Both the position numbers and the translations under genes were made by a program. A stretch of DNA of 64,000 nucleotides from a marine actinobacterium PHSC20C1 (GTDB lineage: Bacteria; Actinomycetota; Actinomycetes; Actinomycetales; Microbacteriaceae): the NCBI GenBank assembly GCA_000153145.1, contig CH672415.1, positions 2,244,164 through 2,308,163 on the forward strand, given 5' to 3'. Position 1 is the stretch's first letter. Each line of letters starts with the position of its first letter. Below are positions 27,041 to 46,492 of the stretch, in pieces. The notes under the pieces were generated by a model. The model did not search any database, was not told the DNA's origin, and saw nothing but the letters and a program-made list of their open reading frames with translations.

Positions 27041-27559
27041 TTAGTTGAACAGTCCACCAAGGTCAAGGTCACCGGTGATGTCACCGATGATGTCGTCGAC
27101 GTCGACCGCGTCGGTTGCGTCTGTCGCAACGTCGGTTGCGTTGTCAACGACGTCGGTTACCTGTGTGGCACTATCGACGGCGTCTGACACGTTGGTTCCG
27201 TTGGCGACGTCACTGACGTTGCCCACTGCGGTGTCGTTTCCTGACGCCACTGGCGCGTTTACCTCGTTGCCTGACGCGATGGCGTTTCCACCGAGGAGAT
27301 CACCGGTGAGGATGCCACCACCGAGAAGATCAAATTCGCTTACCTCGGGTGCAACGACCACAGGGATTTCGTTGTTCCCGAGAGACGCGTCGGAGGATGC
27401 TTCTACCGAAGCGTTGCTGAGGGATGAGTCGGAGGACGCCTTCATCGAGGTGTCGCTGTCCACTGTTGCGGCCATGGCGGGAGCAGCTGCTCCAACGGCG
27501 ATAAGTGCTACTGCTGTCGCGGTTGTGCCGATGGCGGTCTTCTTCGTGAATGCGTTCAT
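27041..27559 (-). CDS. Secreted low-complexity protein with Gly-Asn/Val-Asp repeats
   Basis: A 172-residue protein that I do not recognise as a named family. A Sec signal peptide (about 1-33, ending APAMAA) is followed by Ser/Asp repeats (KASSDSSLSNASVEASSDAS), then GN-spaced segments (GGNAIASGNEVNAPVASGN) and a Val/Asp/Ala/Thr repeat, ending in a short hydrophobic DLGGLFN tail. It has no cysteine. The GN-xxAPV spacing loosely recalls chaplins, but the disulfide cysteines are absent. The start at 27559 is fixed by AAGGAG and the signal peptide. A small hairpin lies in the leader (27584-27599) and a strong terminator follows, so it may be highly expressed. Confidence 0.75.
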   Translation of the reverse strand: MNAFTKKTAIGTTATAVALIAVGAAAPAMAATVDSDTSMKASSDSSLSNASVEASSDASLGNNEIPVVVAPEVSEFDLLGGGILTGDLLGGNAIASGNEVNAPVASGNDTAVGNVSDVANGTNVSDAVDSATQVTDVVDNATDVATDATDAVDVDDIIGDITGDLDLGGLFN

Positions 27560-27793
27560 TACTGAACTCCTTCTAACGTTGGTGGCCCCTGTCCGGGCCG
27601 TTTGGGTCGAGGCTTTCCCGATCCGCAATGAGTATTTCGGAGCGAGTCTGAGAGCCTTTTGAGTCGGGGCCAGATTGGGGGTCGAATCGCACTTATTTCG
27701 CACAGCGGGCAGTCAGGTCAGCCTCCGGTTGCCCATGTTCTCGGGGGCGATTTTCTCGGCTGAGGATCCGCTGGGCAGGCCCTGACCGAACGC

Positions 27794-35344: not shown

Positions 35345-36661
35345 TCACTGGGATGCGACCGGATTGGGCGCGAGTGACGCACTCACTCTCTTGTGCCCGA
35401 ATCGGTTGGCGTCGAACGGGGTGCTCCAACGAGGCAACTCAAGCTCGCCGATAGCGGCGATTGCCAACTCTGCAGAAGCTGGTCCGAGTGTGAGGCCGAG
35501 CATATTATGTCCCGCAGCGAGGACAACACGACTGCTGGCCTTCGCGCGACCAATGAGCGGTAGTCCATCAGGAGTCATCGGTCGTGGCCCGACCCACTCC
35601 TCGGTCCGTGCATCCCAGTCGATCCCTGTGAGATAAGGCTTGGCGGCTCGAATTATTCGTTCAATGCGGCTCGCATTGAACTGGTCCATTGTGCCATCGA
35701 ACTCTACAGTTCCGCCGATGCGCAAGCGCGTGCCCATTGGGGTCGCGACAGCGTTTGATTCGGGCATATTGATCACATGGGTTGGCATAGTTTCGGGTGT
35801 AACGCTGAAGCTATAACCCTTGCCGGATTGAATCGGAACGCGGATTCCGACGCTCTTGAGCACCTGGGGCGACCACGCCCCAGCCGCGATGATCACGGCA
35901 TCCGTTTCCTGATCGCTGGTGTCGGTATGCACAACGACAGAATCGCTGTAGGGAGTAATGCTGGTGACTTCCGTGTTTTCTTGAAACTGGACACCGGAGG
36001 CCAAAAGGTGAGCGTGCAAATCGTCGATTAACGTCGACGGGTCGACAAACCACTGATCAGGCCAGTGGTAACCCGCCGTGACCTTCTCGGACACAACGGG
36101 AGCAAGCCGACGGATATCGTCGCCGCTGACCATTGCGGTTGGTGCGGCAAGCCCAAATCGTCTGACACCTTGGGAGACCACGAAGTCGCGGTGTGCGCGC
36201 TCAGAATCGGCGTAGCAGCGAAGGTTCCCTGACCGCGAAAGTGTCGTGGCAACGCCGATGTCGGGAAGCTCTTTGAACAATTCGAAGCTCCGCTTGGAAA
36301 GTGACGAAAGGGCTTCGAAGCCGTGCTCGTAGGCGCTGGGGCGGCAGTTGCGCGCAAAGGTGAGGAGCCAGCGGGTCAGAGCAACACTCGGGGGGAGATG
36401 GATGCGTAGCGCTGCGTCCTTTGCCAGTGAATTCACGAGTCCTGTGCGAACCATTCCTGGGGCCGGCATGGGGTTAGCCATCGAAGGGCAAATTTCACCG
36501 GCGTTGCCACGGGACGCTCCGCTTCCGACAATGCTGCGCTCGATGACTCGAACTTGGTATCCGGCGCGTACACCGTATAGCGCGGTAAACAGGCCGATGA
36601 GCCCGCCCCCGACGATGGTGAGGTCGGACACTGCATTGCTCTTTCTGTGGTGCGCGCTCAT
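35345..36661 (-). CDS. FAD-dependent D-amino acid dehydrogenase-like oxidoreductase
   Basis: A 438-residue DAO-family flavoenzyme (DadA branch). The dinucleotide motif VGGGLIGL is at 17-24, followed by the acidic end of strand 2 (VIER). Late motifs are DGLPLIGRAKASSRVVLAAGHNMLGLTLGPASA, typical of DadA-type dehydrogenases. It oxidises D-amino or secondary amines to imino acids. ATG 36661 was selected over the longer frame for the AAGGAAA site and the Rossmann start. Last gene of the minus arm, separated from the binding-protein gene by a strong hairpin. Confidence 0.87.
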   Translation of the reverse strand: MSAHHRKSNAVSDLTIVGGGLIGLFTALYGVRAGYQVRVIERSIVGSGASRGNAGEICPSMANPMPAPGMVRTGLVNSLAKDAALRIHLPPSVALTRWLLTFARNCRPSAYEHGFEALSSLSKRSFELFKELPDIGVATTLSRSGNLRCYADSERAHRDFVVSQGVRRFGLAAPTAMVSGDDIRRLAPVVSEKVTAGYHWPDQWFVDPSTLIDDLHAHLLASGVQFQENTEVTSITPYSDSVVVHTDTSDQETDAVIIAAGAWSPQVLKSVGIRVPIQSGKGYSFSVTPETMPTHVINMPESNAVATPMGTRLRIGGTVEFDGTMDQFNASRIERIIRAAKPYLTGIDWDARTEEWVGPRPMTPDGLPLIGRAKASSRVVLAAGHNMLGLTLGPASAELAIAAIGELELPRWSTPFDANRFGHKRVSASLAPNPVASQ

Positions 36662-36730
36662 GATTGCTTTCCTTCGGTTCCAGCGTTTGTGGAACTGATC
36701 GAGTGGTCTTCGTTGTGGCGTCGTGCGAAT

Positions 36731-36768
36731 CCGGTGTGCCACACGAACTAGTTCGCATAGCACACCGG
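36731..36768 (-). promoter_or_regulatory. Intercistronic hairpin between binding protein and oxidoreductase
   Basis: CCGGTGTGC and GCACACCGG form a perfect 9-bp outer stem, enclosing the palindrome CGAACTAGTTCG (36744-36755). It sits just after the solute-binding protein stop. It may stabilise that mRNA 3' end or end part of the transcription before the oxidoreductase gene. Confidence 0.7.
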
Positions 36769-36774
36769 GAGGTG

Positions 36775-37602
36775 CTAACTAATGTCTTCGTCGAACCATT
36801 CGATGCTGATCTTGGCGTACGTGCCATCTTCGCGAATGCTGACGAGCGCCTCGTCGATTGCCTTGCGAAGCTCAGGGTTGTCCTGATTCACGGGGATTGC
36901 TGCGGTGTCTGGAAGAAGAACGTCACCGACGGACTTGATCTCCAAGTTGGCGCTCTTGGCAAGGAACTTTCCAATGAAGCCTTGAGCGATAACACCGTCC
37001 ACTCGACCAGCAGCTAGATCGCGCAGGGCATCTACGGTTGCCTGATAGGTCGTGATGTCAGCTACTCCATCAAGCGTGCGTGCGTAGGTTTCGAACGTGG
37101 TTCCGAGAGCGACGCCGAGGGTCGAATCAGAAAGGTCGGCAACACTGTTGATCGTCGCATCGTTGCGTACGAAAAGGCTGGCACCAGTTTCATAGTAATT
37201 TTCAGTGAAATCGACGGTTTCTTTACGCTCGTCTGTTGCCGTCATCGATCCGATGATGGCGTCGAATCGATTGCTCGCGAGACCTGCGACCAAAGTCGTG
37301 AACGCTCCAGTGACGGGCTCAGCCTCTAGCCCAAGTTCATTGGCGATCGCTCCGCAGATGTCGACATCAAAACCGACCAGCGTGTTGGACTCGTCAAAAA
37401 AGTTGAATGGGCGGTACTCACCGCTCATCGCGCAAATGAACTTGCCGGGTTCAACTGTCGTGAAGGCGGCTTCAGCGACCGATTTCGTCGGCTCATCTGC
37501 TGCTGAGGTTGAACAAGCGCTGACGCTCAGGAATAGTCCAGCAACGATAGTCGCGGCGGCGATGCGGCGACCAATAGAAGCGTGCGGGTGGCGGATATTC
37601 AT
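36775..37602 (-). CDS. Amino-acid ABC transporter substrate-binding lipoprotein
   Basis: A 275-residue SBP_bac_3 (cluster F) protein. The signal peptide ends SVSAC with lipidated Cys30. The binding domain opens with the family motif FICAMSGEYRPFNFFDE, then GFDVDICGAIANELG, DAIIGSMTATDERKE and a GTTFETY second-lobe motif. It should pair with the permease and ATPase genes at 45055-46492 on the plus strand, since no other such membrane components are in the window. Ligand unknown; the genes around suggest a basic or cyclic amino-acid derivative. Confidence 0.9.
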   Translation of the reverse strand: MNIRHPHASIGRRIAAATIVAGLFLSVSACSTSAADEPTKSVAEAAFTTVEPGKFICAMSGEYRPFNFFDESNTLVGFDVDICGAIANELGLEAEPVTGAFTTLVAGLASNRFDAIIGSMTATDERKETVDFTENYYETGASLFVRNDATINSVADLSDSTLGVALGTTFETYARTLDGVADITTYQATVDALRDLAAGRVDGVIAQGFIGKFLAKSANLEIKSVGDVLLPDTAAIPVNQDNPELRKAIDEALVSIREDGTYAKISIEWFDEDIS

Positions 37603-37667
37603 GTGATTCTCATTTCTATTTCTCGGATGTGCGGCTTATCAATCGGAATTGGTGCTTGTCGTAATAG

Positions 37668-39470
37668 TCAGTGGTCGGTAGATGCTCGGAGTTCGTTGGT
37701 GCGGGCGACGTCGACGGCGCCGTTTTCGTCGAGAGCAACACCGTATTGAGTTCGTGCCGCGGCAGCATCGATATACCCGAGCATCGCGTCGTGGGCGACC
37801 CTGGCTGGCTCGCGTTTCCACGGGTCGTCATAGCCTCCGCCACCTGGGGCATAAAAGGTCACCGTATCGCCATAGTTGAGGTCGAGTGTCGGGCCAGCCT
37901 GATTCGCTAGAACGTGCTCGTTTTCATCGCCCTCATTGATGACCCAGCGGCTACCAAGACCCTGACCTCCGCCGAACAATCCGTTAGGCGCATTCACGGA
38001 TCTTTGAGACGTGTGTGAGAACTTCACGTCGTGGCCGAGTGCCTGCCAAGAAAGGATGACGCCAAGCCCCCCGCGATTTCGCCCGGGTCCTGCGGAGCCA
38101 GGGCGCAGTTCCTTACGCAAGTAACGCACAGGACCTTCGATCTCTAGGCTTTCAACTGAAGGGCTTGCAACGTTTGTAATCCACCCCGGCATCCCGTTTA
38201 GCCCGTCTAGTGTTGAGCGAGCGCCGAGCCCTCCCACGCTTGGTCCGGTACCGTTTCCCCACGACCGGCGGCCAGAAACATCTCCCCCGTTGGGGTGAGT
38301 GTCGTGGTTTATCGCGGACGCGACGCAGTAGATCATGCCGCAGGAGTTGGCGACAACCGCATCGGGAACTGCCGGGGCTAGCGCTTCGAAAACCAGATCG
38401 ACAATTTGGTGAGTTACTGCCATCCGCTGGTAGACCGCTGCAGGAAAACGCGGGTTCACAAGGGAGCCTTCTGGGGCGACTATGTGGACAGGGTTTGCCG
38501 AGCCCTCATTCTTGGGGATATCGGCGGGCAGTAGAGCAAGTAGCCCGAATAGACTCGCCGAGATCGTGGCAGACATTGGGCAGTTGATTGGTCCCGCAAC
38601 CGAATCGTCTGTTCCGGTGAAATCGAAAGTAATCTCGTCATCCGCGACGATCACGGTGAGGGCTAACTTGACTGGGCCGCACATGCTGCCATCTTCGAGA
38701 AGGTTCGTCGCGGCGTAATAGCTGCCGTCGGCGATCTGGCGAATGTACGCGCGCGTGCGACGCTCGGCGTAGTCGATTTGGCTGTCGATCGCTTCATCGA
38801 TGACGGCTAGTCCGTATTTCTCTATAAGGGCAAGAAAGCCGTTCGAGCCGACTTTTGCTCCAGCAACCTGGCCAAGTATGTCCCCACGCTGTTCATACGG
38901 AGCGTTGGTGTTTGCGAGGATCAGCTTGAATAACTGCTCGTCGAGAACGCCTTCGTTGAAGAGCTTTATCGGAGGGATGCGTAGCCCTTCCTCAAATATT
39001 GTTGTGTGCCAACCTTCAGGGTCGTTGCCACCGGAGCCGGCCAGGTGGGCGAAAATTGTTGAGAATCCGACGAGTTGATCGCGGAGAAAAATCGGGTAGT
39101 ACACGATGAAGTCTGAGGTGTGGTGGGCTCCAACGCTGCCGCCCACGTAGGGGTCATTGGTCAGAATGACATCACCGGGTTTCATAGCAGACGCAGGAAT
39201 GTGCTCCTCGAGCATTGCTCGAAGACACGGGCCAAGTGCATTGAGATGAACCGGGATATTAGCGCCCTCTGCAATTAGTCTCCCGGATACGTCAAAGATC
39301 GAGGAAGAGCAATCCTTTCCTTCCTTGAGCAGGAGCGAGTAGCTCGTTCGCTCCATGGTGTCGGTCATCTGTTCCGCGAGAGACTCAAGTGCGCTCCGGA
39401 CAACCTCTACGGTGATGACGTCGAGGTAAACTCGGTCTCCGTTGTGTGGTGGGACGTTGGTGGTCGGCAT
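37668..39470 (-). CDS. hyuB: Hydantoinase B / oxoprolinase beta-type subunit
   Basis: A 600-residue HyuB family protein with the conserved MTDTMERTSYSLLLKEGKDCSSSI start region (Glu and Asp expected for metal binding), the LTNDPYVGGSVGAHHTSD metal-site motif, and the C-terminal GRNRGGLGV. With HyuA it forms an ATP-dependent amidohydrolase or carboxylase. Members include N-methylhydantoinase, 5-oxoprolinase, caprolactamase and acetone carboxylase. The two subunits are in separate genes whose stop and start share one base. Confidence 0.9.
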   Translation of the reverse strand: MPTTNVPPHNGDRVYLDVITVEVVRSALESLAEQMTDTMERTSYSLLLKEGKDCSSSIFDVSGRLIAEGANIPVHLNALGPCLRAMLEEHIPASAMKPGDVILTNDPYVGGSVGAHHTSDFIVYYPIFLRDQLVGFSTIFAHLAGSGGNDPEGWHTTIFEEGLRIPPIKLFNEGVLDEQLFKLILANTNAPYEQRGDILGQVAGAKVGSNGFLALIEKYGLAVIDEAIDSQIDYAERRTRAYIRQIADGSYYAATNLLEDGSMCGPVKLALTVIVADDEITFDFTGTDDSVAGPINCPMSATISASLFGLLALLPADIPKNEGSANPVHIVAPEGSLVNPRFPAAVYQRMAVTHQIVDLVFEALAPAVPDAVVANSCGMIYCVASAINHDTHPNGGDVSGRRSWGNGTGPSVGGLGARSTLDGLNGMPGWITNVASPSVESLEIEGPVRYLRKELRPGSAGPGRNRGGLGVILSWQALGHDVKFSHTSQRSVNAPNGLFGGGQGLGSRWVINEGDENEHVLANQAGPTLDLNYGDTVTFYAPGGGGYDDPWKREPARVAHDAMLGYIDAAAARTQYGVALDENGAVDVARTNELRASTDH

Positions 39471-41578
39471 CAGATGCTCCTTAAGGAACTCGAAAAGTTG
39501 TCGGACGATTTGTGATCGGACGGCAGCGCTGGCTCGAGATCGTAGATAACTAGGCTGCCGTCCGCAGCCGGTTCGAGCAGAAATCTTGGCGGCACGACGA
39601 GTGTGCTTCCCGACTCTTCGATAACGGCGGGGCCCGCAATGGAATCACCCTTCCGGATGTGGTCGCGCGCGAATACCGGGGTCTCCAGCCACGACCCGAA
39701 GAAGGCTTGCCGCGTTGTTGTGGGAATCGGAGAGGAACCATCACTCGCGGAGGCGAGGGGCACAGCTCGGGGGCGAAATGCAGAGCCTATACCTGTGACG
39801 CGAATGTTGACCAGTTCAACGGGGTCGGTCAGGGAAGCATGACCATATCGGGTTCGGTGCAAACGGTGGAACTCGTGACGCAACTGAAGCAGGGTGGCTG
39901 GGGTAACTTCGCCTGACGGGCACGGGACGATAAGTTCGAAAGTTTGGCCAACGTAGCGCAATTCGACTAGGCGACTCAGTTTTCGGGCGCCCTCGGGAAC
40001 ATTGTCTTCCGCGAGTTGTGCAGTGCATCCGGTTTCGAGCGTCTCGAACGCCTGATTCAGCTGCGAAACATCAGTCTCGGCGAGCGAAGTAAGGAACGAA
40101 GCCAGAACGTCATGTCTTTGGTCTGTGAGCAGCAGGCCAAGCGCCGAGCTATTGCCGGGGTTGCGCGGAATCACGAGACGAGGAGTACCGAGTTCGTGGG
40201 CAAGGGGAGCCGCAATGAGGCCTCCCGCTCCACCGAAAGCAATGAGCGCCATGTCCCGCGGATCGTGACCTCGAGCGATCGTGAGGCGTCGGATGGCACG
40301 AAGCGATGCGGCGGCAGCAAGGGCCATGATTCCATTCGCCACCGCAGAATTCGACAGACCCAAGACAGTCGATATCGTCTCAATCGCGCGCTCAGCGGAC
40401 AGCCGGTCAAGTGTGCGTCGTCCGCCGAGGAACGCGCTCTGCCCGAGATATCCAAGGAACAAGGCAGCGTCGGTGACGGTCGGACGAGTTCCGCCCTCGT
40501 TATAGCAGGCAGGTCCGGGGTGTGCGCCGGCGCTTTCTGGCCCGACGCGTAGGGCACCACCGTCGTCAACCCAGGCGATTGATCCACCGCCGGCTCCGAT
40601 TGGGTCGACCTCGATTGTCGGCTGCTGCACGGGGTGTCCCTGCATGGCATCGCTTGGGACCTCGATCGGGGCCCCGTCGAGGAGGAGCGCGACATCAGTG
40701 CTCGTGCCGCCCATGTCGAGAGTGATTGCCGCTGGCATCTCGAGTGTCTTCGCGATGGCAGCTCCAGCGATTACTCCTGCGACCGGTCCCGAGTTGGTGA
40801 CACGAATCGGGCGTTGTCGAGCGGCCTCGAACGACATCGAGCCACCGTTGCCCTGCATTGTTAGGAGCACCGCGTTAATGCCGATACGACGCAACTCCTC
40901 TTCGAGATGCTTGAAGTGCTCAGCGAGCCGTGGTTTTACGAAGGCATCGACGCTCGCAGTGCTAGCGCGTTCGAACTCGCCGATGGTCGGGCTGAGCGTC
41001 GAGGAAACGGAGATGTAGGCACCTGGCAACGACTCCGAGACGAGCGTTGCGATGCGTTGCTCGTGCACGTCATTCTTGTACGAATGCAGCAGACAGATCG
41101 CTACCGACTCGACGCCCCGTTCCGCAAACGACGCGATTGCGCCATGAACATCCGCCTCGTGAAGTTGCTGCACTATGTTTCCGCGGAAGTCGATGCGTTC
41201 GCGAACGCCCAGGCGTAGGTCGCGAGGGATGAGCGGCGCAGGCTGTTCCCACTGAACGTTGTAGATGCTGCCCTTACGGTGCGAGCGCCCCAGTTCGAGC
41301 ACATCGGTAAAGCCAGCGGTGGTGATGAGCCCGCTGATGGTGGCATCACCTTGGATGATGCGGTTGACCATCACAGTCGTACCGTAGACCACGGTAGAAA
41401 CGTCGTCGGGGCTAGCGCTAGCGGTGTCCAGTACCCGAGTAATGCCGTTCAGGACGCCAATAACAGGGTCGCTCGGAGTTGAAGATACCTTGTCGACCCA
41501 GACCTTCCCCGATTCTTCGTCGAGTAGCACTAAGTCGGTATGGGTGCCGCCTGTGTCGATGCCCAATCTGTAGGTCAC
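39470..41578 (-). CDS. hyuA: Hydantoinase A / oxoprolinase alpha-type subunit
   Basis: A 702-residue HyuA family ATPase subunit. N-terminal GIDTGGTHTDLVLLD is the phosphate-binding motif of the actin-like ATPase fold, and TLDMGGTSTDVALL and FGGAGGLIAAPLA are the later ones. It couples ATP to opening of a cyclic amide in the HyuB partner. GTG start at 41578 with GAGGA upstream. It opens the minus arm of the catabolic island and is divergent from kdd. The substrate is not determined by sequence alone. Confidence 0.9.
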   Translation of the reverse strand: MTYRLGIDTGGTHTDLVLLDEESGKVWVDKVSSTPSDPVIGVLNGITRVLDTASASPDDVSTVVYGTTVMVNRIIQGDATISGLITTAGFTDVLELGRSHRKGSIYNVQWEQPAPLIPRDLRLGVRERIDFRGNIVQQLHEADVHGAIASFAERGVESVAICLLHSYKNDVHEQRIATLVSESLPGAYISVSSTLSPTIGEFERASTASVDAFVKPRLAEHFKHLEEELRRIGINAVLLTMQGNGGSMSFEAARQRPIRVTNSGPVAGVIAGAAIAKTLEMPAAITLDMGGTSTDVALLLDGAPIEVPSDAMQGHPVQQPTIEVDPIGAGGGSIAWVDDGGALRVGPESAGAHPGPACYNEGGTRPTVTDAALFLGYLGQSAFLGGRRTLDRLSAERAIETISTVLGLSNSAVANGIMALAAAASLRAIRRLTIARGHDPRDMALIAFGGAGGLIAAPLAHELGTPRLVIPRNPGNSSALGLLLTDQRHDVLASFLTSLAETDVSQLNQAFETLETGCTAQLAEDNVPEGARKLSRLVELRYVGQTFELIVPCPSGEVTPATLLQLRHEFHRLHRTRYGHASLTDPVELVNIRVTGIGSAFRPRAVPLASASDGSSPIPTTTRQAFFGSWLETPVFARDHIRKGDSIAGPAVIEESGSTLVVPPRFLLEPAADGSLVIYDLEPALPSDHKSSDNFSSSLRSI

Positions 41579-41719
41579 TGTGGAAATCCTCTTGCTTGGA
41601 AACGCTTGTCTGAAGCGCCGTGGTGCTCGGAAACTGTGGACACTTTTTGCTTGGGACTTATCTCAACAGCGCATCGCAACCGCGGCAAGCGACGGATACC
41701 CCGACCTTGATCGGCTTGA

Positions 41720-41735
41720 CTGGACAATTGTCCAG
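41720..41735. promoter_or_regulatory. Perfect 16-bp palindrome, probable operator
   Basis: CTGGACAATTGTCCAG is perfectly symmetric with no spacer. It lies about 140 bases before hyuA and 108 bases before the kdd -35. The TetR regulator in the plus arm (44310) or the PucR regulator (32986) is the likely binder. Confidence 0.6.
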
Positions 41736-41842
41736 CGAAGGGCCGTGGCGTTGAATGTGAGCAAACATCACTGGCGCAAAGCGGTGCGAGTCGAAGAATC
41801 GCGCATCACAACCGAAGCGTCTTCTGGACCTGAGATGCGCTG

Positions 41843-41871
41843 TTGACAGTCCCTATCGGCAACACTAGGCT
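41843..41871 (+). promoter_or_regulatory. Promoter of the kdd operon
   Basis: TTGACA (41843-41848), 17-base spacer, TAGGCT (41866-41871). The -35 is a perfect consensus. GTTCAATAGAAC at 41893-41904 is close to the expected transcription start and may be an operator. Confidence 0.6.
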
Positions 41872-42042
41872 CCTGGTAACTCCTTACTGGTCGTTCAATA
41901 GAACATGAATTGACGTGGTGCGTATGCGCGTCTTGGCCGCAAGGGGCAATGGTCTCAACGATGAAACTGTCTCGATGAAAGGACTGCGCGTGCACTCTCT
42001 CGGTATCCAATGTCTGCCCCTCTCAAATTTGGGAGGCTTACG

Positions 42043-43089
42043 ATGACCAACACGCAGAGCTTCACAGAAATGATCGAACGTTTAGGTGCCGATCGAGTGA
42101 TTCGCCCCTCTGGCGCGCTGCCGCAGACTGCGGAGGTTCTTGACGCGTCTGGGCCCGTTCGCCCATACGAGTTCGAGCTTGAAGTCAATAGGCTTTGCCT
42201 TGATGCGACTTCGTTTCGTACTATTCGCGCTGAGTCAAACGGGGACCCAGAAGCAATGGGGAAGCGCGTGCAGGAGATTGTTGCGGCCCGCGGAAAGATG
42301 CATAACCCCGTGACAGATTCCGGCGGAATCGCGTTAGGGACCGTCCGAGCCGTTGGTTCGAAGTTCAAAAACCCGCCTCAGATCGGGGCACAAGTTGCGA
42401 CGCTTGCCTCTCTCACGCTCACTCCACTGGAGCTGGATACGATTGTTCACGTCGATCCGGATTCAGCTCAAATTGAAGTGCGCGGCAGGGCATATGTCTG
42501 CGAACGCGCGCCCTGGGGACTCCAACCTGCAGACATCGAGACTGGTCGAGCGCTCGAGATTTACGACGTCTACGGAGCCGCATCTCACACCGCACGACTC
42601 GCACCGAAAACCGGCGTCATCTACGTACTCGGCTGCGGGCACGCCGGACAGGTCGCTATGGCGGCCGCCCGAGACAATATGGATGATGGCATCATTGTTG
42701 CTGTGGACGTCGATGCGGCGTCGGTCCAACGGGCCAAGGACTCAGGCCTCTGTGACATCGGAGTCGTTGCAGATCTCCAAAGTCCTCTCAGCGCCCTTGC
42801 TGCCGTTCAGAGTGCTGGCGCACCGCCGGCCGACTTCACCGTTCTGGTGGTGAACGCTCCGCGATGTGAGGCCTTTGCAATCCTGGCAACCAAGGAAAAG
42901 GGCACAGTGCTGTTCTTCTCGATGGCAACGAACTTCAGTACTGCTGCCCTGACAGCCGATGGGATGGGACACGACGTAACGATGCTTATCGGGAGCGGCT
43001 ACACACCCGATGTCGGCAGTTATGCGCTTGATCTCTATCGAAATACGCCAGGCCTGCAATCGATTTCGCTCACCGGCGGCAAGGCATGA
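42043..43089 (+). CDS. kdd: L-erythro-3,5-diaminohexanoate dehydrogenase
   Basis: A 348-residue protein that matches Kdd of the lysine fermentation pathway. It has the N-terminal HRVI-like RVIRPSGALPQTAEV, the diagnostic ARGKMHNPVTDSGGIALGTV, ATLASLTLTPLELD, and a Rossmann motif VLGCGHAG (195-202). Kdd oxidatively deaminates 3,5-diaminohexanoate to 3-keto-5-aminohexanoate with NAD(P). I start at ATG 42043 because GGGAGG (42031-42036) precedes it; the frame opens at 42010. Next genes encode a thioesterase and the cleavage enzyme for the product. Stops overlap by 4 bases down the operon. Confidence 0.9.
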   Translation: MTNTQSFTEMIERLGADRVIRPSGALPQTAEVLDASGPVRPYEFELEVNRLCLDATSFRTIRAESNGDPEAMGKRVQEIVAARGKMHNPVTDSGGIALGTVRAVGSKFKNPPQIGAQVATLASLTLTPLELDTIVHVDPDSAQIEVRGRAYVCERAPWGLQPADIETGRALEIYDVYGAASHTARLAPKTGVIYVLGCGHAGQVAMAAARDNMDDGIIVAVDVDAASVQRAKDSGLCDIGVVADLQSPLSALAAVQSAGAPPADFTVLVVNAPRCEAFAILATKEKGTVLFFSMATNFSTAALTADGMGHDVTMLIGSGYTPDVGSYALDLYRNTPGLQSISLTGGKA

Positions 43090-43490
43090 CGAACGGAGGC
43101 GCAAGCCAGGATGTTCAGGTGCGCTGGCCAGACCTCGACGGCCTTGGTCATGTCAACCACAGCACTGTTCTCGCATATCTTGAAGTGGGTCGAGATGCGA
43201 CCTTCAGATCGCGAGGAATTGCCGGTGAGGACTATGTGGTCCGCCACTGCACGATCGATTACCAGGGCGAGCTCAGGCCATCAGGTGCCTATGTCCAATA
43301 CCAGTGCGAAGAACTGAAACTCGGGAATACCAGTATCCGTTCGCTTGAGCGTCTCTTCAACGCCGAGGGTCGCTGCGTTGTTGAGGCAACGTTCACGCTT
43401 GTGATGTGGGACGCTACGGCACGGTCGTCTCGAGAGCTCACTGCAAAAGAACGAAAAAGTCTGGCCGATCTAACTAAGGAGCAGCAATGA
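43086..43490 (+). CDS. Hotdog-fold acyl-CoA thioesterase (YbgC/4HBT type)
   Basis: A 134-residue 4HBT-type protein. The signature VRWPDLDGLGHVNHSTVLAYLE has the catalytic Asp16 and the GHVNH turn. In fermenters, 3-aminobutyryl-CoA from Kce is deaminated by Kal, itself a hotdog-fold ammonia-lyase. The sequence here looks more like a thioesterase, so it may hydrolyse the CoA product of Kce or replace Kal. It is fully coupled to kdd and kce by ATGA overlaps on both sides. Confidence 0.85.
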   Translation: MTNGGASQDVQVRWPDLDGLGHVNHSTVLAYLEVGRDATFRSRGIAGEDYVVRHCTIDYQGELRPSGAYVQYQCEELKLGNTSIRSLERLFNAEGRCVVEATFTLVMWDATARSSRELTAKERKSLADLTKEQQ

Positions 43491-44320
43491 AAAAGTGGAA
43501 TTCAGATCCAGTCGTCATCACTGCGGCGATTACAGGAGCAGATGTCACTCGCGCAGACAATCCCAATGTTCCTTACACCGCCGATGAAATCGCAGAATCA
43601 AGCCTGAGATCAATTGAGGCCGGTGCGTCAATTGCGGCGCTACACGTGCGAGAAGACGACGGCACGCCGAGTGGTCGCCCCGACCTCTTTCAGGACGTAA
43701 TCAAGCAGATTCGAGCTGGCGCACCGCACGCTCTAACCAACGTTTCCACCGGCGGCTCAAACACCATGAGCATTGAGGAGCGCATGGGTGGGTTGGAAGC
43801 CAACCCCGACATGTGTGGAGTCGAAACCGGATCCATGAACTTCGGCAATGAGACATTCATTACCTCACCCGCAGCAGGCCGTGAGGTCATTGCCAGAGCG
43901 CAGAAACAGAAGATCAGCCTCGAGGTGGAAGCCTTTGACGTCGGGCACATCATCAGCGCGCTGAGCCTCATTGAGAAAGGTATTCTGCAGCAACCATTAA
44001 GGGTTAATTTGGTTTTCGGCGTGTCAGGGGGAATGGATGCCTCGCCCGAGGCGCTTGAGGCAATGCTGCGGCCGTTGCCCCCAGAGACGTTCTGGACGGT
44101 AACCTGCGTTGGCCGTCACCATGACCGGATGTTGGCGCTCGGGCTCCTGAAAGGCGCGTCTGGTGTTCGAACTGGTTTGGAAGACGTTGCGTACATCAGC
44201 AGGGGAGTGCACGCGCCGTCGAACGAAGCTCTAGTCGCCAAACTTGTGACTCTGGCGAAGACCCTTGGCCGTGATGTCGCCACTGCAGATCAAGCACGTG
44301 AGCTTCTCGATGTCTACTAA
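43487..44320 (+). CDS. kce: 3-keto-5-aminohexanoate cleavage enzyme (BKACE family)
   Basis: A 277-residue DUF849/BKACE protein. It starts with the VITAAITGADVTRADNPNVP region, and contains an LHVRED motif, the CVGRHHDRMLA segment and SGVRTGLEDVAYI with the metal-binding Glu near 232. These enzymes condense a beta-keto acid with acetyl-CoA to give acetoacetate and a new CoA ester. Notable: the first His of the expected HxH zinc pair is Ala51 here (IAALHVR, where other members have IVHLHVR), while His53 is kept. Activity may thus differ. TetR starts within its last 11 bases. Confidence 0.87.
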   Translation: MKKWNSDPVVITAAITGADVTRADNPNVPYTADEIAESSLRSIEAGASIAALHVREDDGTPSGRPDLFQDVIKQIRAGAPHALTNVSTGGSNTMSIEERMGGLEANPDMCGVETGSMNFGNETFITSPAAGREVIARAQKQKISLEVEAFDVGHIISALSLIEKGILQQPLRVNLVFGVSGGMDASPEALEAMLRPLPPETFWTVTCVGRHHDRMLALGLLKGASGVRTGLEDVAYISRGVHAPSNEALVAKLVTLAKTLGRDVATADQARELLDVY

Positions 44321-45068
44321 AGAAGACGACGTGGCTTCGGGTAGAGCTGAATCGGGGTCTGGAGGACAGCCACAGCCGCGGCGGGGAATCGACACCCGGA
44401 GCGCCATTAGCGCGGCTGCTACGGGTCTATTCTTCAAAGTTGGTTTTCACGCCGCAACGATGAAGGCGATTGGTGAGGCTGCCAACGTTCAGGCAGCTGC
44501 AATTTACTACTGGTATCCGAGCAAGGAAGCGCTGCTAGTGCATTTGCAGGACGATTTCATGAACCAGCTCACTGAATCCGTCGAGTCGGCTGTTGCCCCG
44601 CACGACAGGGCCGCCTACCGGTTGGCCGCAGCCGTGCGCGCTCATGTTGTCTTTCACGCGCTTCACCAGCAAGAGGCATTCGTGACGGACAGCGAAATAC
44701 GCGCTCTCACTCCCGAACCGCGTCAGAAATTGATCAGTAGAAGAGACGCATATCAGCAGTTCTTTTACGACATGATCCTTGATGGTGTGGACGAGGGTGA
44801 CTTTAGTCCCACTGATCCACGCGTGGCCACATTTGCCATCCTGCTGCAGTGCACGGGCGTTTCACTGTGGTTTAAGACTGCTGGGGCCATGACTGCAAGC
44901 GAAGTGGCAGATAGCCACGTTGATCTTGTGCTCGGTTCGCTCCACACGGACTTGGCCCTCATCCCCGCCATTATCGAGGCAGTACGCGGAGACGATGCGA
45001 CTGAAGCAACTCAGCAAGTGAACCGCGACTCCTCCAACTCATCGGGAGCATCCCATGGAATTTCTTGA
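44310..45068 (+). CDS. TetR-family regulator of the catabolic island
   Basis: A 252-residue TetR protein. After a Gly/Glu-rich tail of about 35 residues comes the HTH (about 42-85, with TMKAIGEAANVQAAAIYYWYPSKEALL) and a C-terminal ligand domain (about 110-215). I start at ATG 44310, overlapping the kce stop by 11 bases, because the longer frame only extends inside kce. Its position within the operon suggests it governs the divergent promoter region. The permease gene starts within its last 14 bases. Confidence 0.87.
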   Translation: MSTKEDDVASGRAESGSGGQPQPRRGIDTRSAISAAATGLFFKVGFHAATMKAIGEAANVQAAAIYYWYPSKEALLVHLQDDFMNQLTESVESAVAPHDRAAYRLAAAVRAHVVFHALHQQEAFVTDSEIRALTPEPRQKLISRRDAYQQFFYDMILDGVDEGDFSPTDPRVATFAILLQCTGVSLWFKTAGAMTASEVADSHVDLVLGSLHTDLALIPAIIEAVRGDDATEATQQVNRDSSNSSGASHGIS

Positions 45069-45705
45069 CGCACTGGTCACAAGCTGGCCGACTCTCCTGA
45101 AAGGGTTGCGGGTCACGCTCCTGCTCACTTTCCTCACCTTGTTCTTCTCCGTCATCCTTGCGGCGATTATCGTGGCCCTCAAGATGAGCAAAGTACGCGC
45201 ATTCTCCGCCTTTGCGACGGTGTATCTCGCCGTCGTTCGAGGGGTGCCTCTAATCGCGTTGCTGTTCGTGATCTATTTTGGCATCGTTTCAATCGTGAAA
45301 GTGGACGCTTTCACCGCAGCAACCATTGGCCTAAGCGTGCATAGTTCCGCCTATGTCGCCGAGATATTCCGTTCCGGAATCAATTCAGTACACAGCGGCC
45401 AGGTCGAAGCATCTCGGTCACTTGGTATGTCACGAGCAGCAACCATGATTCGGGTGGTGGCACCGCAGGCGCTCCGAGTGGTAATTCCAGCTCTCGTCAA
45501 TCAGGCAATTATTTCCCTCAAGGACAGCGCAGTAGCGTCGTTCATCACCGTCGATGAATTATTCATGTCCGCCCAACGGCTTTCCGCCGCAACCTTCCAG
45601 CCGCTCACCTACTACGCGATCGTCAGCCTCTACTATCTGGCGGTTGTCGGAGTCATGACCTACCTCTCCGGTCGCGTCGAGCGTTACTTCAAAAAGCGAG
45701 GCTAA
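45055..45705 (+). CDS. Amino-acid ABC transporter permease
   Basis: A 216-residue HisM/GlnP family permease with about five membrane helices. The EAA loop is [28 protein letters not shown], and the late [22 protein letters not shown] region is typical of polar amino-acid permeases. It probably forms a homodimer because only one permease gene is present. It joins the ATPase gene 4 bases downstream and the binding protein encoded divergently at 36775-37602. Confidence 0.92.
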
Positions 45706-45709
45706 GACC

Positions 45710-46492
45710 ATGACCAGTCCTTCCACACCGAAAACTCCGTCGGTACCAACCGGCCAGCCACGAGTGTCCATCAAGGGCGCCTCCAAAAGCTTCGGAGACA
45801 GCGTCGTACTGAACGGCATCGACCTAGACGTCGAAGTGGGCGAGGTTGCGGTACTGATTGGGCCATCCGGGGCGGGCAAAAGCACCCTGCTTAGGTGCAT
45901 CAATGGCCTCGAGCGACTCACCGCTGGAAGCGTCGAGATCGATGGCGTGCGGCTGCAGTATCGGGAAGCAGCCCTCAACCGGATGCGGGAACACGTTGGG
46001 ATGGTGTTCCAGTCGTTTAACCTATTCCCCCACCTCACCGCGATTGAGAACGTCATGATGGCACAAATGTCGGTGTCGAAACGGTCGAGTGCCGATGCAC
46101 GGGAGCGCGCTTCCGCCCTACTTGCCCGTGTGGGGCTAGAGGACAAGACCGAGAGCTACCCAAGCGCACTCTCTGGGGGTCAGCAACAGCGCGTTGCAAT
46201 TGCCCGCGCGCTTGCGATGTCCCCGAAACTCATGCTCTTCGACGAGCCGACTTCGGCGCTTGACCCCGAACTTGTCGGAGAGGTACTGCAGGTGATGCGC
46301 GAACTTGCCGATGACGGAATGACCATGGTCGTCGTTACGCACGAGATGCGATTCGCACGTCAAGTTGCCGATCGGGTGATTCTGCTCGCTGATGGGGGCA
46401 TTGTAGAGGAGGGGGCCCCTGAAAAGGTTCTTGACAATCCTGAATCAGATCGGGCAAAGGCGTTTCTGCGTCAAATCGAATCGGGTGGTTAG
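45710..46492 (+). CDS. Amino-acid ABC transporter ATP-binding protein
   Basis: A 260-residue polar amino-acid ATPase (HisP/GlnQ type). Walker A is GPSGAGKST, the Q-loop lies in [12 protein letters not shown], the signature is [15 protein letters not shown], and Walker B is [12 protein letters not shown] with the H-loop in [15 protein letters not shown]. It ends the plus-arm operon. Two 9-bp copies of CGAGTCTCG follow (46502-46523). Confidence 0.93.

Follow-up and report, generated by a model that had tools for sequence, protein, structure and literature searches.

A divergent kdd-thioesterase-kce unit without lysine 5,6-aminomutase in the marine actinobacterium PHSC20C1, with a possible role in beta-amino acid catabolism

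We have analyzed a 64,000 bp stretch of the genome of the marine actinobacterium PHSC20C1 (contig CH672415.1, positions 2,244,164 to 2,308,163; the window in what follows) that encodes homologues of Kdd and Kce, two enzymes of lysine fermentation. They lie in a region at 35.3–46.5 kb (Table 1) that we read, with confidence slightly short of even, as a single divergent unit for the catabolism of an imported and probably cationic beta-amino acid, with an NAD-dependent route that would most plausibly convert beta-lysine to 4-aminobutyrate (GABA). It is probable that a beta-amino acid route here has changed its substrate range; beta-lysine itself as the substrate is offered with more reserve, as a possibility. 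The altered enzyme sites and the neighbouring genes suggest that an imported beta-amino acid is broken down by a route for which, as for an aminomutase-free kdd-thioesterase-kce unit, we found no description in open-access papers.

An earlier note on this DNA listed genes for Kdd, a YbgC-like thioesterase and Kce, coupled by ATGA overlaps, with a TetR regulator and an amino-acid ABC importer, and all are present where it placed them. The overlaps can be read at 43086–43089 (kdd/thioesterase) and 43487–43490 (thioesterase/kce), and the plus-strand genes from kdd to the ATPase gene either overlap or sit a few bases apart. The ATG at 42043 is probably the genuine kdd start, with gggagg upstream. 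The note also counted the transporter as part of the unit, and this is supported. A divergent minus-strand operon (35345–41578) with a binding protein gene extends the unit further left than the note had it. The plus-strand operon lacks a binding protein, and the one in the divergent operon is encoded together with HyuA, HyuB and a DadA-like oxidase; this division of the importer argues that the two operons form a single unit.

Kdd was found only in the host among 398 sampled genomes of its family. Scanning named genomes yielded 16 Kdd loci, of which two from mycobacterial metagenome-assembled genomes (MAGs) are 71–72% identical to the window Kdd, two from Solirubrobacterales MAGs 59–62%, one from an Actinomycetes MAG 46%, and the remaining eleven 27–37%. 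A sample of 396 genomes of the phylum added two further close Kdds, in G932 (61%) and G1096 (50%), and a plasmid search returned two records, from Fusobacterium and Acetoanaerobium (34%). The window Kdd and seven relatives form a clade with support of 100/100 against 40 other rows, recovered in 200 of 200 bootstrap trees. The trees were midpoint-rooted and long rows were flagged, L036 among them; the first (100/100) had seven labelled rows with L036 grouped with them, and the second labels eight and adds L098, a row from a genome with KamD, which falls outside the clade of eight. The fit of clade members to the Kdd family model NF052381 (curated cut-off 200 bits) is incomplete: the window protein scores 163.1 bits (E 5.9e-48, computed on a longer frame from 42010) and L032, L096 and L097 score 169, 152 and 196, whereas the ordinary Kdds of L027 and L037 score 266 and 238. 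Separately, a second Kdd-like paralogue, about 26–27% identical to the window Kdd, adjoins Kdd in the Bacillota loci L047 (7608–9680, a frame of 691 amino acids), L038–L041 and L043.

The host genome is a single contig of 2.77 Mb, 99.99% complete, and a whole-genome model search found no KamD in it, in agreement with the earlier note's statement that lysine 5,6-aminomutase is missing; the lysine route through 3,5-diaminohexanoate is thus impossible in the known way. The KamD model gave 0 of 14 control genomes in one run and was positive in 29 of 29 other genomes in a later run. Among 394 genomes of the class, 76 besides the host have Kdd at E 1e-10; the 29 are drawn from these, with ordinary (non-clade) Kdds, and all 29 have KamD. 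Kdd by itself is thus a common enzyme of the class, and its occurrence without KamD uncommon. KamD is found in none of the eight clade genomes, several of which are MAGs and may be incomplete, and in the phylum sample it is present in eight of the nine other (non-clade) Kdd genomes tested, the exception being G981 (85% complete), whose Kdd (L095, 39% identity) is outside the tree sample. Outside the phylum, the L047 genome has KamD and the Neobacillus genome of L037 does not.

No B12-binding domain scores above cut-off in the host genome, where the single sub-threshold match falls in proC. LAM_C (PF12544) has no match there and is present in five of 14 controls; it is a weak test for KamA, because a KamA-like protein encoded next to kdd in the class (L003; best model lysine 2,3-aminomutase, 168 bits, below cut-off) also has no PF12544 match. 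There is no KamA-like gene in the window; such a gene adjoins kdd in every one of the 29 class loci and in none of the seven clade loci other than the window's. In those 29 loci (L003–L031) we found no kce within about 1.5 kb, and the best BKACEs of their genomes, where fetched, are on other contigs or far off and score below the Kce cut-off.

Residues that are otherwise kept are changed in both Kdd and Kce of the clade. Kdd position 310 is Asp in six clade rows, including the window, and Glu in all 39 non-clade rows; six _b paralogue rows, L044–L046 and L098 (all Glu310) were left out of the counts, and the alignment was built without L042 (a split match), L089 and L091–L095. All eight clade Kdds have GxGxxG together with Asp226, which is present in none of the 39 others. 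We take this combination, by the usual rule, to mean NAD+ rather than NADP+, and all eight carry what is by this criterion an NAD-type signature. PMC9902596 reports that an E310G substitution affects the substrate scope of 3,5-diaminohexanoate dehydrogenase. A role for Glu310 in holding the distal amine was considered and dropped, since the same paper has Glu310 on the NADPH amide.

The window Kce clearly belongs to the BKACE family (PF05853, 285.5 bits, cut-off 24.8), and scores 278.2 bits with NF052387, below a strict cut-off of 382 that was exceeded in only two of the 32 genomes searched. In Kce, all 30 ordinary rows have Glu at position 14, and the six lineages whose Kdd has the E310D change have Asp there. 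Each of the seven clade Kces has a Glu at position 108 that is absent from the ordinary rows, and position 46 is Ala only in the window and the two mycobacterial loci (L032 and L033), with His in 30 of 30 ordinary rows. The ordinary rows comprise 2y7d, L037, L051, L050 (identical in protein to L037) and, for 26 of the 29 KamD genomes, the top BKACE match of each, picked per genome and not as a proven Kdd partner; two others of the 29, G023 and G150, have no Kce match at E 1e-40. Four rows were left out: L053, which is the window's own, and L055, 3no5 and 3chv, all three of which have His46 but not Glu14; L055 is the best Kce-model match in G127, a genome with KamD, and omitting it favors the Glu14 count. 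The BKACE zinc ligands are taken as residues 46, 48 and 230 (2y7d numbering), with the role of His46 presumed by alignment; the window Kce keeps His48 and Glu230 of this presumed set. A His/His/Glu set is named for the BKACE BsfD in PMC12871164. None of the residues common only to the window, L032 and L033 is a newly gained His, Cys, Asp or Glu that might compensate as a metal ligand.

Kdd and Kce would act consecutively, and the same lineages show changes at kept positions of both, so that substrate or cofactor handling appears to have changed. The earlier note had proposed a 3,5-diamino acid as substrate and a 3-aminobutyryl product; this does not carry over, since Kdd Glu310 and Kce Glu14 and His46 are all changed in the window proteins and their specificity cannot be transferred from the enzyme names. 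The layout it imagined, with unchanged residues, a true Kal and no KamD, does occur, in a different phylum: Neobacillus rhizosphaerae (L037, 9298–14601) has TetR-Kdd-Kal-Kce-binding protein-permease-ATPase, with Kal above cut-off, Glu310 and Glu14 unchanged, and no KamD.

The thioesterase occupies the position that Kal has in L037, as the note had suggested. It has a 4HBT domain (PF13279, 34.0 bits, cut-off 25.5; PF03061, 30.6 bits, cut-off 20.6), and its best NCBIfam model is YbgC/FadM (28 bits, below cut-off). The Kal model NF052388 does not match it at E 1e-3, and identifies the Kal proteins of L037 and L047 above cut-off (187 bits each). By tblastn there is no Kal in the window; the remainder of the host genome was not searched for it. 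A thioesterase gene is near kdd-kce in the window, L034, L035, L096 and L097.

The order kdd-thioesterase-kce-TetR is conserved in L034, L035 and L096. Other clade loci are arranged differently: L097 has HyuA-HyuB-kdd-kce-thioesterase in series on one strand, after a polyamine-type importer (best models below cut-off) and ahead of a HemL-like class III aminotransferase gene, and in L032 and L033 a PxpA-type gene (a 5-oxoprolinase subunit) overlaps kdd, with kce next. Among the seven clade loci besides the window, a histone-deacetylase-type amidohydrolase is near kdd in five, an S58 peptidase in four, an S66 peptidase in three and an oligopeptide-type binding protein in three. Amide or lactam hydrolysis thus appears to recur around clade kdd genes through differing enzyme families. 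HyuA, PxpA and the histone-deacetylase-type deacetylase were not seen in the non-clade kdd loci compared, 29 of which are of about 4 kb or less, and the absence of kce, HyuA and PxpA from the short class loci is therefore weak evidence. We also note that in L034 (1–834), L035 and L096 (9670–10731) the amidohydrolase is upstream of kdd; downstream of kdd are an S66 peptidase, an oligopeptide-type binding protein and, in L034 and L035, an S58 peptidase as well. These surroundings suggest that the beta-amino acid used is acylated or bound in a peptide.

The minus-strand HyuA and HyuB have the domains of the lactamase family that includes CapAB, OplAB and the hydantoinases. Aligned to 6yra_B, HyuB keeps Asp41, His99 and His124 of the CapB metal site, plus an Asp at chain position 102 by our count, called D101 in PMC8453981. 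Caprolactamase is the best curated family model for both subunits in the window and in L097, below cut-off; for the window the CapA and CapB scores are 554 and 270 bits (cut-off 1000 for each). OplAB, a relative of CapAB, opens delta-valerolactam (PMC11033972). Elsewhere in the host, GabT scores above cut-off and its gene adjoins one for a protein like succinate-semialdehyde dehydrogenase (SSADH; 563 bits, cut-off 646).

From these genes we infer a possible series of reactions, a substrate and an order of steps. The split ABC importer would take up the compound, Kdd would deaminate its 3-amino group with NAD+ to give a 3-oxo acid, and the Kce-type BKACE with acetyl-CoA would split this into acetoacetate and an acyl-CoA shortened by two carbons, from which the thioesterase would release the free acid. 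HyuAB would open a cyclic amide at the expense of ATP, either that of the incoming compound or that of a lactam self-formed from an omega-aminoacyl-CoA. The likeliest substrate would be 3,6-diaminohexanoate (beta-lysine), either as such or cyclised or acylated, giving 4-aminobutyryl-CoA, then GABA, and succinate via GabT and SSADH. Replacement of Kal by a thioesterase would be sensible if the freed acid is usable, and GABA should be, given GabT beside the SSADH-like gene. 4-Aminobutyryl-CoA cyclises to 2-pyrrolidone, which would provide a task for HyuAB, the alternative being an incoming lactam. The fullest version of this proposal, in which a rare clade turned Kdd and Kce into a free-standing NAD-dependent route from beta-lysine (as lactam or acyl form) to GABA via a thioesterase and a lactamase, and in which the window and mycobacterial BKACEs work with the two-residue ligand set His48 and Glu230, is doubtful as a whole; to our knowledge no characterised BKACE has a two-residue protein ligand set.

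Several observations weigh against a GABA route from beta-lysine. Within the clade L097 and L036 retain Kdd Glu310, the L097 Kce retains Glu14, and L036 has none of the partner genes within its 13.9 kb; the mycobacterial loci L032 and L033 yielded no thioesterase, and HyuAB is next to kdd in only two of the eight members (the window and L097). That Kce Glu14 touches the substrate amine is our assumption, and Ala at the presumed zinc ligand could reflect altered Kce chemistry. PMC9902596 reports Glu310 as binding the NADPH amide, so E310D may follow the cofactor and not the substrate. The best models for the binding protein are lysine/arginine/ornithine and cystine, both below cut-off. By PDB score both Hyu subunits are closer to N-methylhydantoinase than to caprolactamase (HyuA 466 vs 424 bits, HyuB 280 vs 216), and HyuAB may be a hydantoinase. 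The pyrrolidone version is weakened by the trace activity only of OplAB on gamma-butyrolactam (PMC11033972). A KamA-like gene may be present elsewhere in the host genome and make beta-lysine inside the cell.

Four other explanations were weighed. Action of the window Kdd and Kce on 3,5-diaminohexanoate, as the earlier note had it, is quite improbable, although these are the best-matching named families, KamD is absent, and delta-lactam opening by OplAB (PMC11033972) would fit the six-membered lactam of 3,5-diaminohexanoate. The positions kept in the enzymes of KamD genomes (Kdd 310; Kce 14, 46 and 108) are changed, and GABA has an onward route in the host. We know of no onward route for 3-aminobutyrate and no source of free 3,5-diaminohexanoate. 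Degradation of beta-amino acids that are acetylated or bound in peptides (N-epsilon-acetyl-beta-lysine or beta-lysine antibiotics, for example), with deacetylases, peptidases and lactamases freeing the beta-amino acid or the shortened product, would account for the amidohydrolase, peptidase and oligopeptide-type binding protein genes of the other clade loci. It is nonetheless unlikely here: the host genome has no histone-deacetylase-type amidohydrolase, the window has no S58 or S66 peptidase, and its importer is of the amino-acid type.

A hydantoin-like ring may instead be what HyuAB and the FAD oxidase degrade, with kdd-thioesterase-kce serving a different beta-amino acid and the promoter region and importer common to both. 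The N-methylhydantoinase matches and the DadA-like oxidase gene in the HyuAB operon are consistent with such an arrangement, which is rather improbable given the serial order of the five genes on one strand in L097, the division of the importer between the two operons, and caprolactamase as best curated model, albeit below cut-off. Finally, loss of His46, the presumed zinc ligand, in the window, L032 and L033 could have left Kce catalytically dead and the unit a relic. This is very unlikely, because Kce is more conserved than Kdd between the window and the mycobacteria (78–81% vs 71–72% identity), its reading frame is intact, and the ratio of nonsynonymous to synonymous substitution rates (dN/dS) of 0.053 between L032 and L033 indicates purifying selection. 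Nor is Phe (not Tyr) at position 145 of the window Kce a sign of decay, being Phe in all 26 KamD-genome rows compared.

The unit proposed here for beta-lysine resembles known systems in part. With lysine fermentation (KamA, KamDE, Kdd, Kce, Kal) it shares Kdd and Kce homologues and beta-amino acid dehydrogenation followed by acetyl-CoA-dependent cleavage; it differs in the absence of KamD, the thioesterase in place of Kal, the changed positions, the NAD-type signature and the coupled HyuAB and importer. Aerobic carnitine catabolism uses carnitine dehydrogenase, a dehydrocarnitine BKACE and a betainyl-CoA thioesterase; the dehydrogenase-BKACE-thioesterase logic is the same, and the L034 thioesterase weakly matches the thioesterase part of the carnitine dehydrogenase model (18 bits), although the dehydrogenase family and substrate class are different. 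Pseudomonas B4 degrades beta-lysine via 4-acetamidobutyryl-CoA, with a transaminase and N-acetylation. Its acetoacetate cleavage, thioester hydrolysis and deacetylation to GABA fit the kinds of genes across the clade, whereas the window unit has an NAD-type dehydrogenase and no acetylase was noticed in it. Relative to CapAB/OplAB and N-methylhydantoinase, the window has both subunits and the CapB metal-site residues, but is below the CapA/CapB cut-offs and nearer to N-methylhydantoinase by PDB score.

Two sequences near kdd are candidate regulatory sites. The motif TAACGRTCGTTCA is present in one copy just upstream of kdd in each of L034, L035 and L096 (L085 being the same place) and in none of the rest of the 101 loci, a count that is not independent because the motif was derived from these very loci. 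A relaxed pattern with one mismatch allowed has two matches compared with 1.1 expected, and 38 of 100 shuffles equal this, so that the window TTACTGGTCGTTCA is supporting evidence only. The palindrome CTGGACAATTGTCCAG may be a second regulator site. Elsewhere in the window, positions 27041–27703 (minus strand) encode a secreted-looking low-complexity protein of 220 amino acids, rich in Asn, Asp, Val and Ala as judged by eye.

Table 1. Features of the divergent unit, in window coordinates.
Feature	Coordinates	Strand	Remarks
FAD-dependent amine/D-amino acid oxidoreductase (DadA-like)	35345..36763	-	True start probably closer to 36661
Amino-acid ABC substrate-binding protein (SBP_bac_3)	36775..37602	-	Partner absent from plus-strand operon
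HyuB, beta subunit	37668..39470	-	CapB model 270 bits; Asp, His, Asp, His kept
HyuA, ATP-dependent lactamase/hydantoinase alpha subunit	39470..41578	-	CapA model 554 bits
Perfect 16-base palindrome CTGGACAATTGTCCAG	41720..41735	.	Between both operons; differs from motif common to relatives
Candidate TetR operator TTACTGGTCGTTCA	41884..41897	+	TAACGRTCGTTCA just upstream of kdd in three relatives
Kdd-like beta-amino acid dehydrogenase, 348 amino acids	42043..43089	+	NAD-type Rossmann signature GxGxxG + Asp226; Asp310 (7dl3 numbering)
Hot-dog thioesterase (YbgC/FadM type), at Kal position	43086..43490	+	PF13279, PF03061
Kce-type BKACE	43487..44320	+	PF05853; Asp14, Ala46, Glu108, Phe145 (2y7d numbering)
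TetR regulator	about 44310..45068	+	TetR_N, TetR_C_24; relative after kce in L034, L035, L096
Polar amino-acid ABC permease (His/Glu/Gln/Arg/opine type)	45055..45705	+	Domain and family models
Polar amino-acid ABC ATPase (GlnQ-like)	45710..46492	+	Domain and family models

Annotation by name would assign these genes to lysine fermentation, and the name is likely misleading here, with KamD missing and residues altered at kept positions of both enzymes. In the clade, two successive enzymes present a testable shift of substrate or cofactor, and there is a natural BKACE that lacks a presumed metal ligand retained in every other BKACE row compared. Its genes are also candidates for a pathway of beta-lysine catabolism that dispenses with the 5,6-aminomutase.

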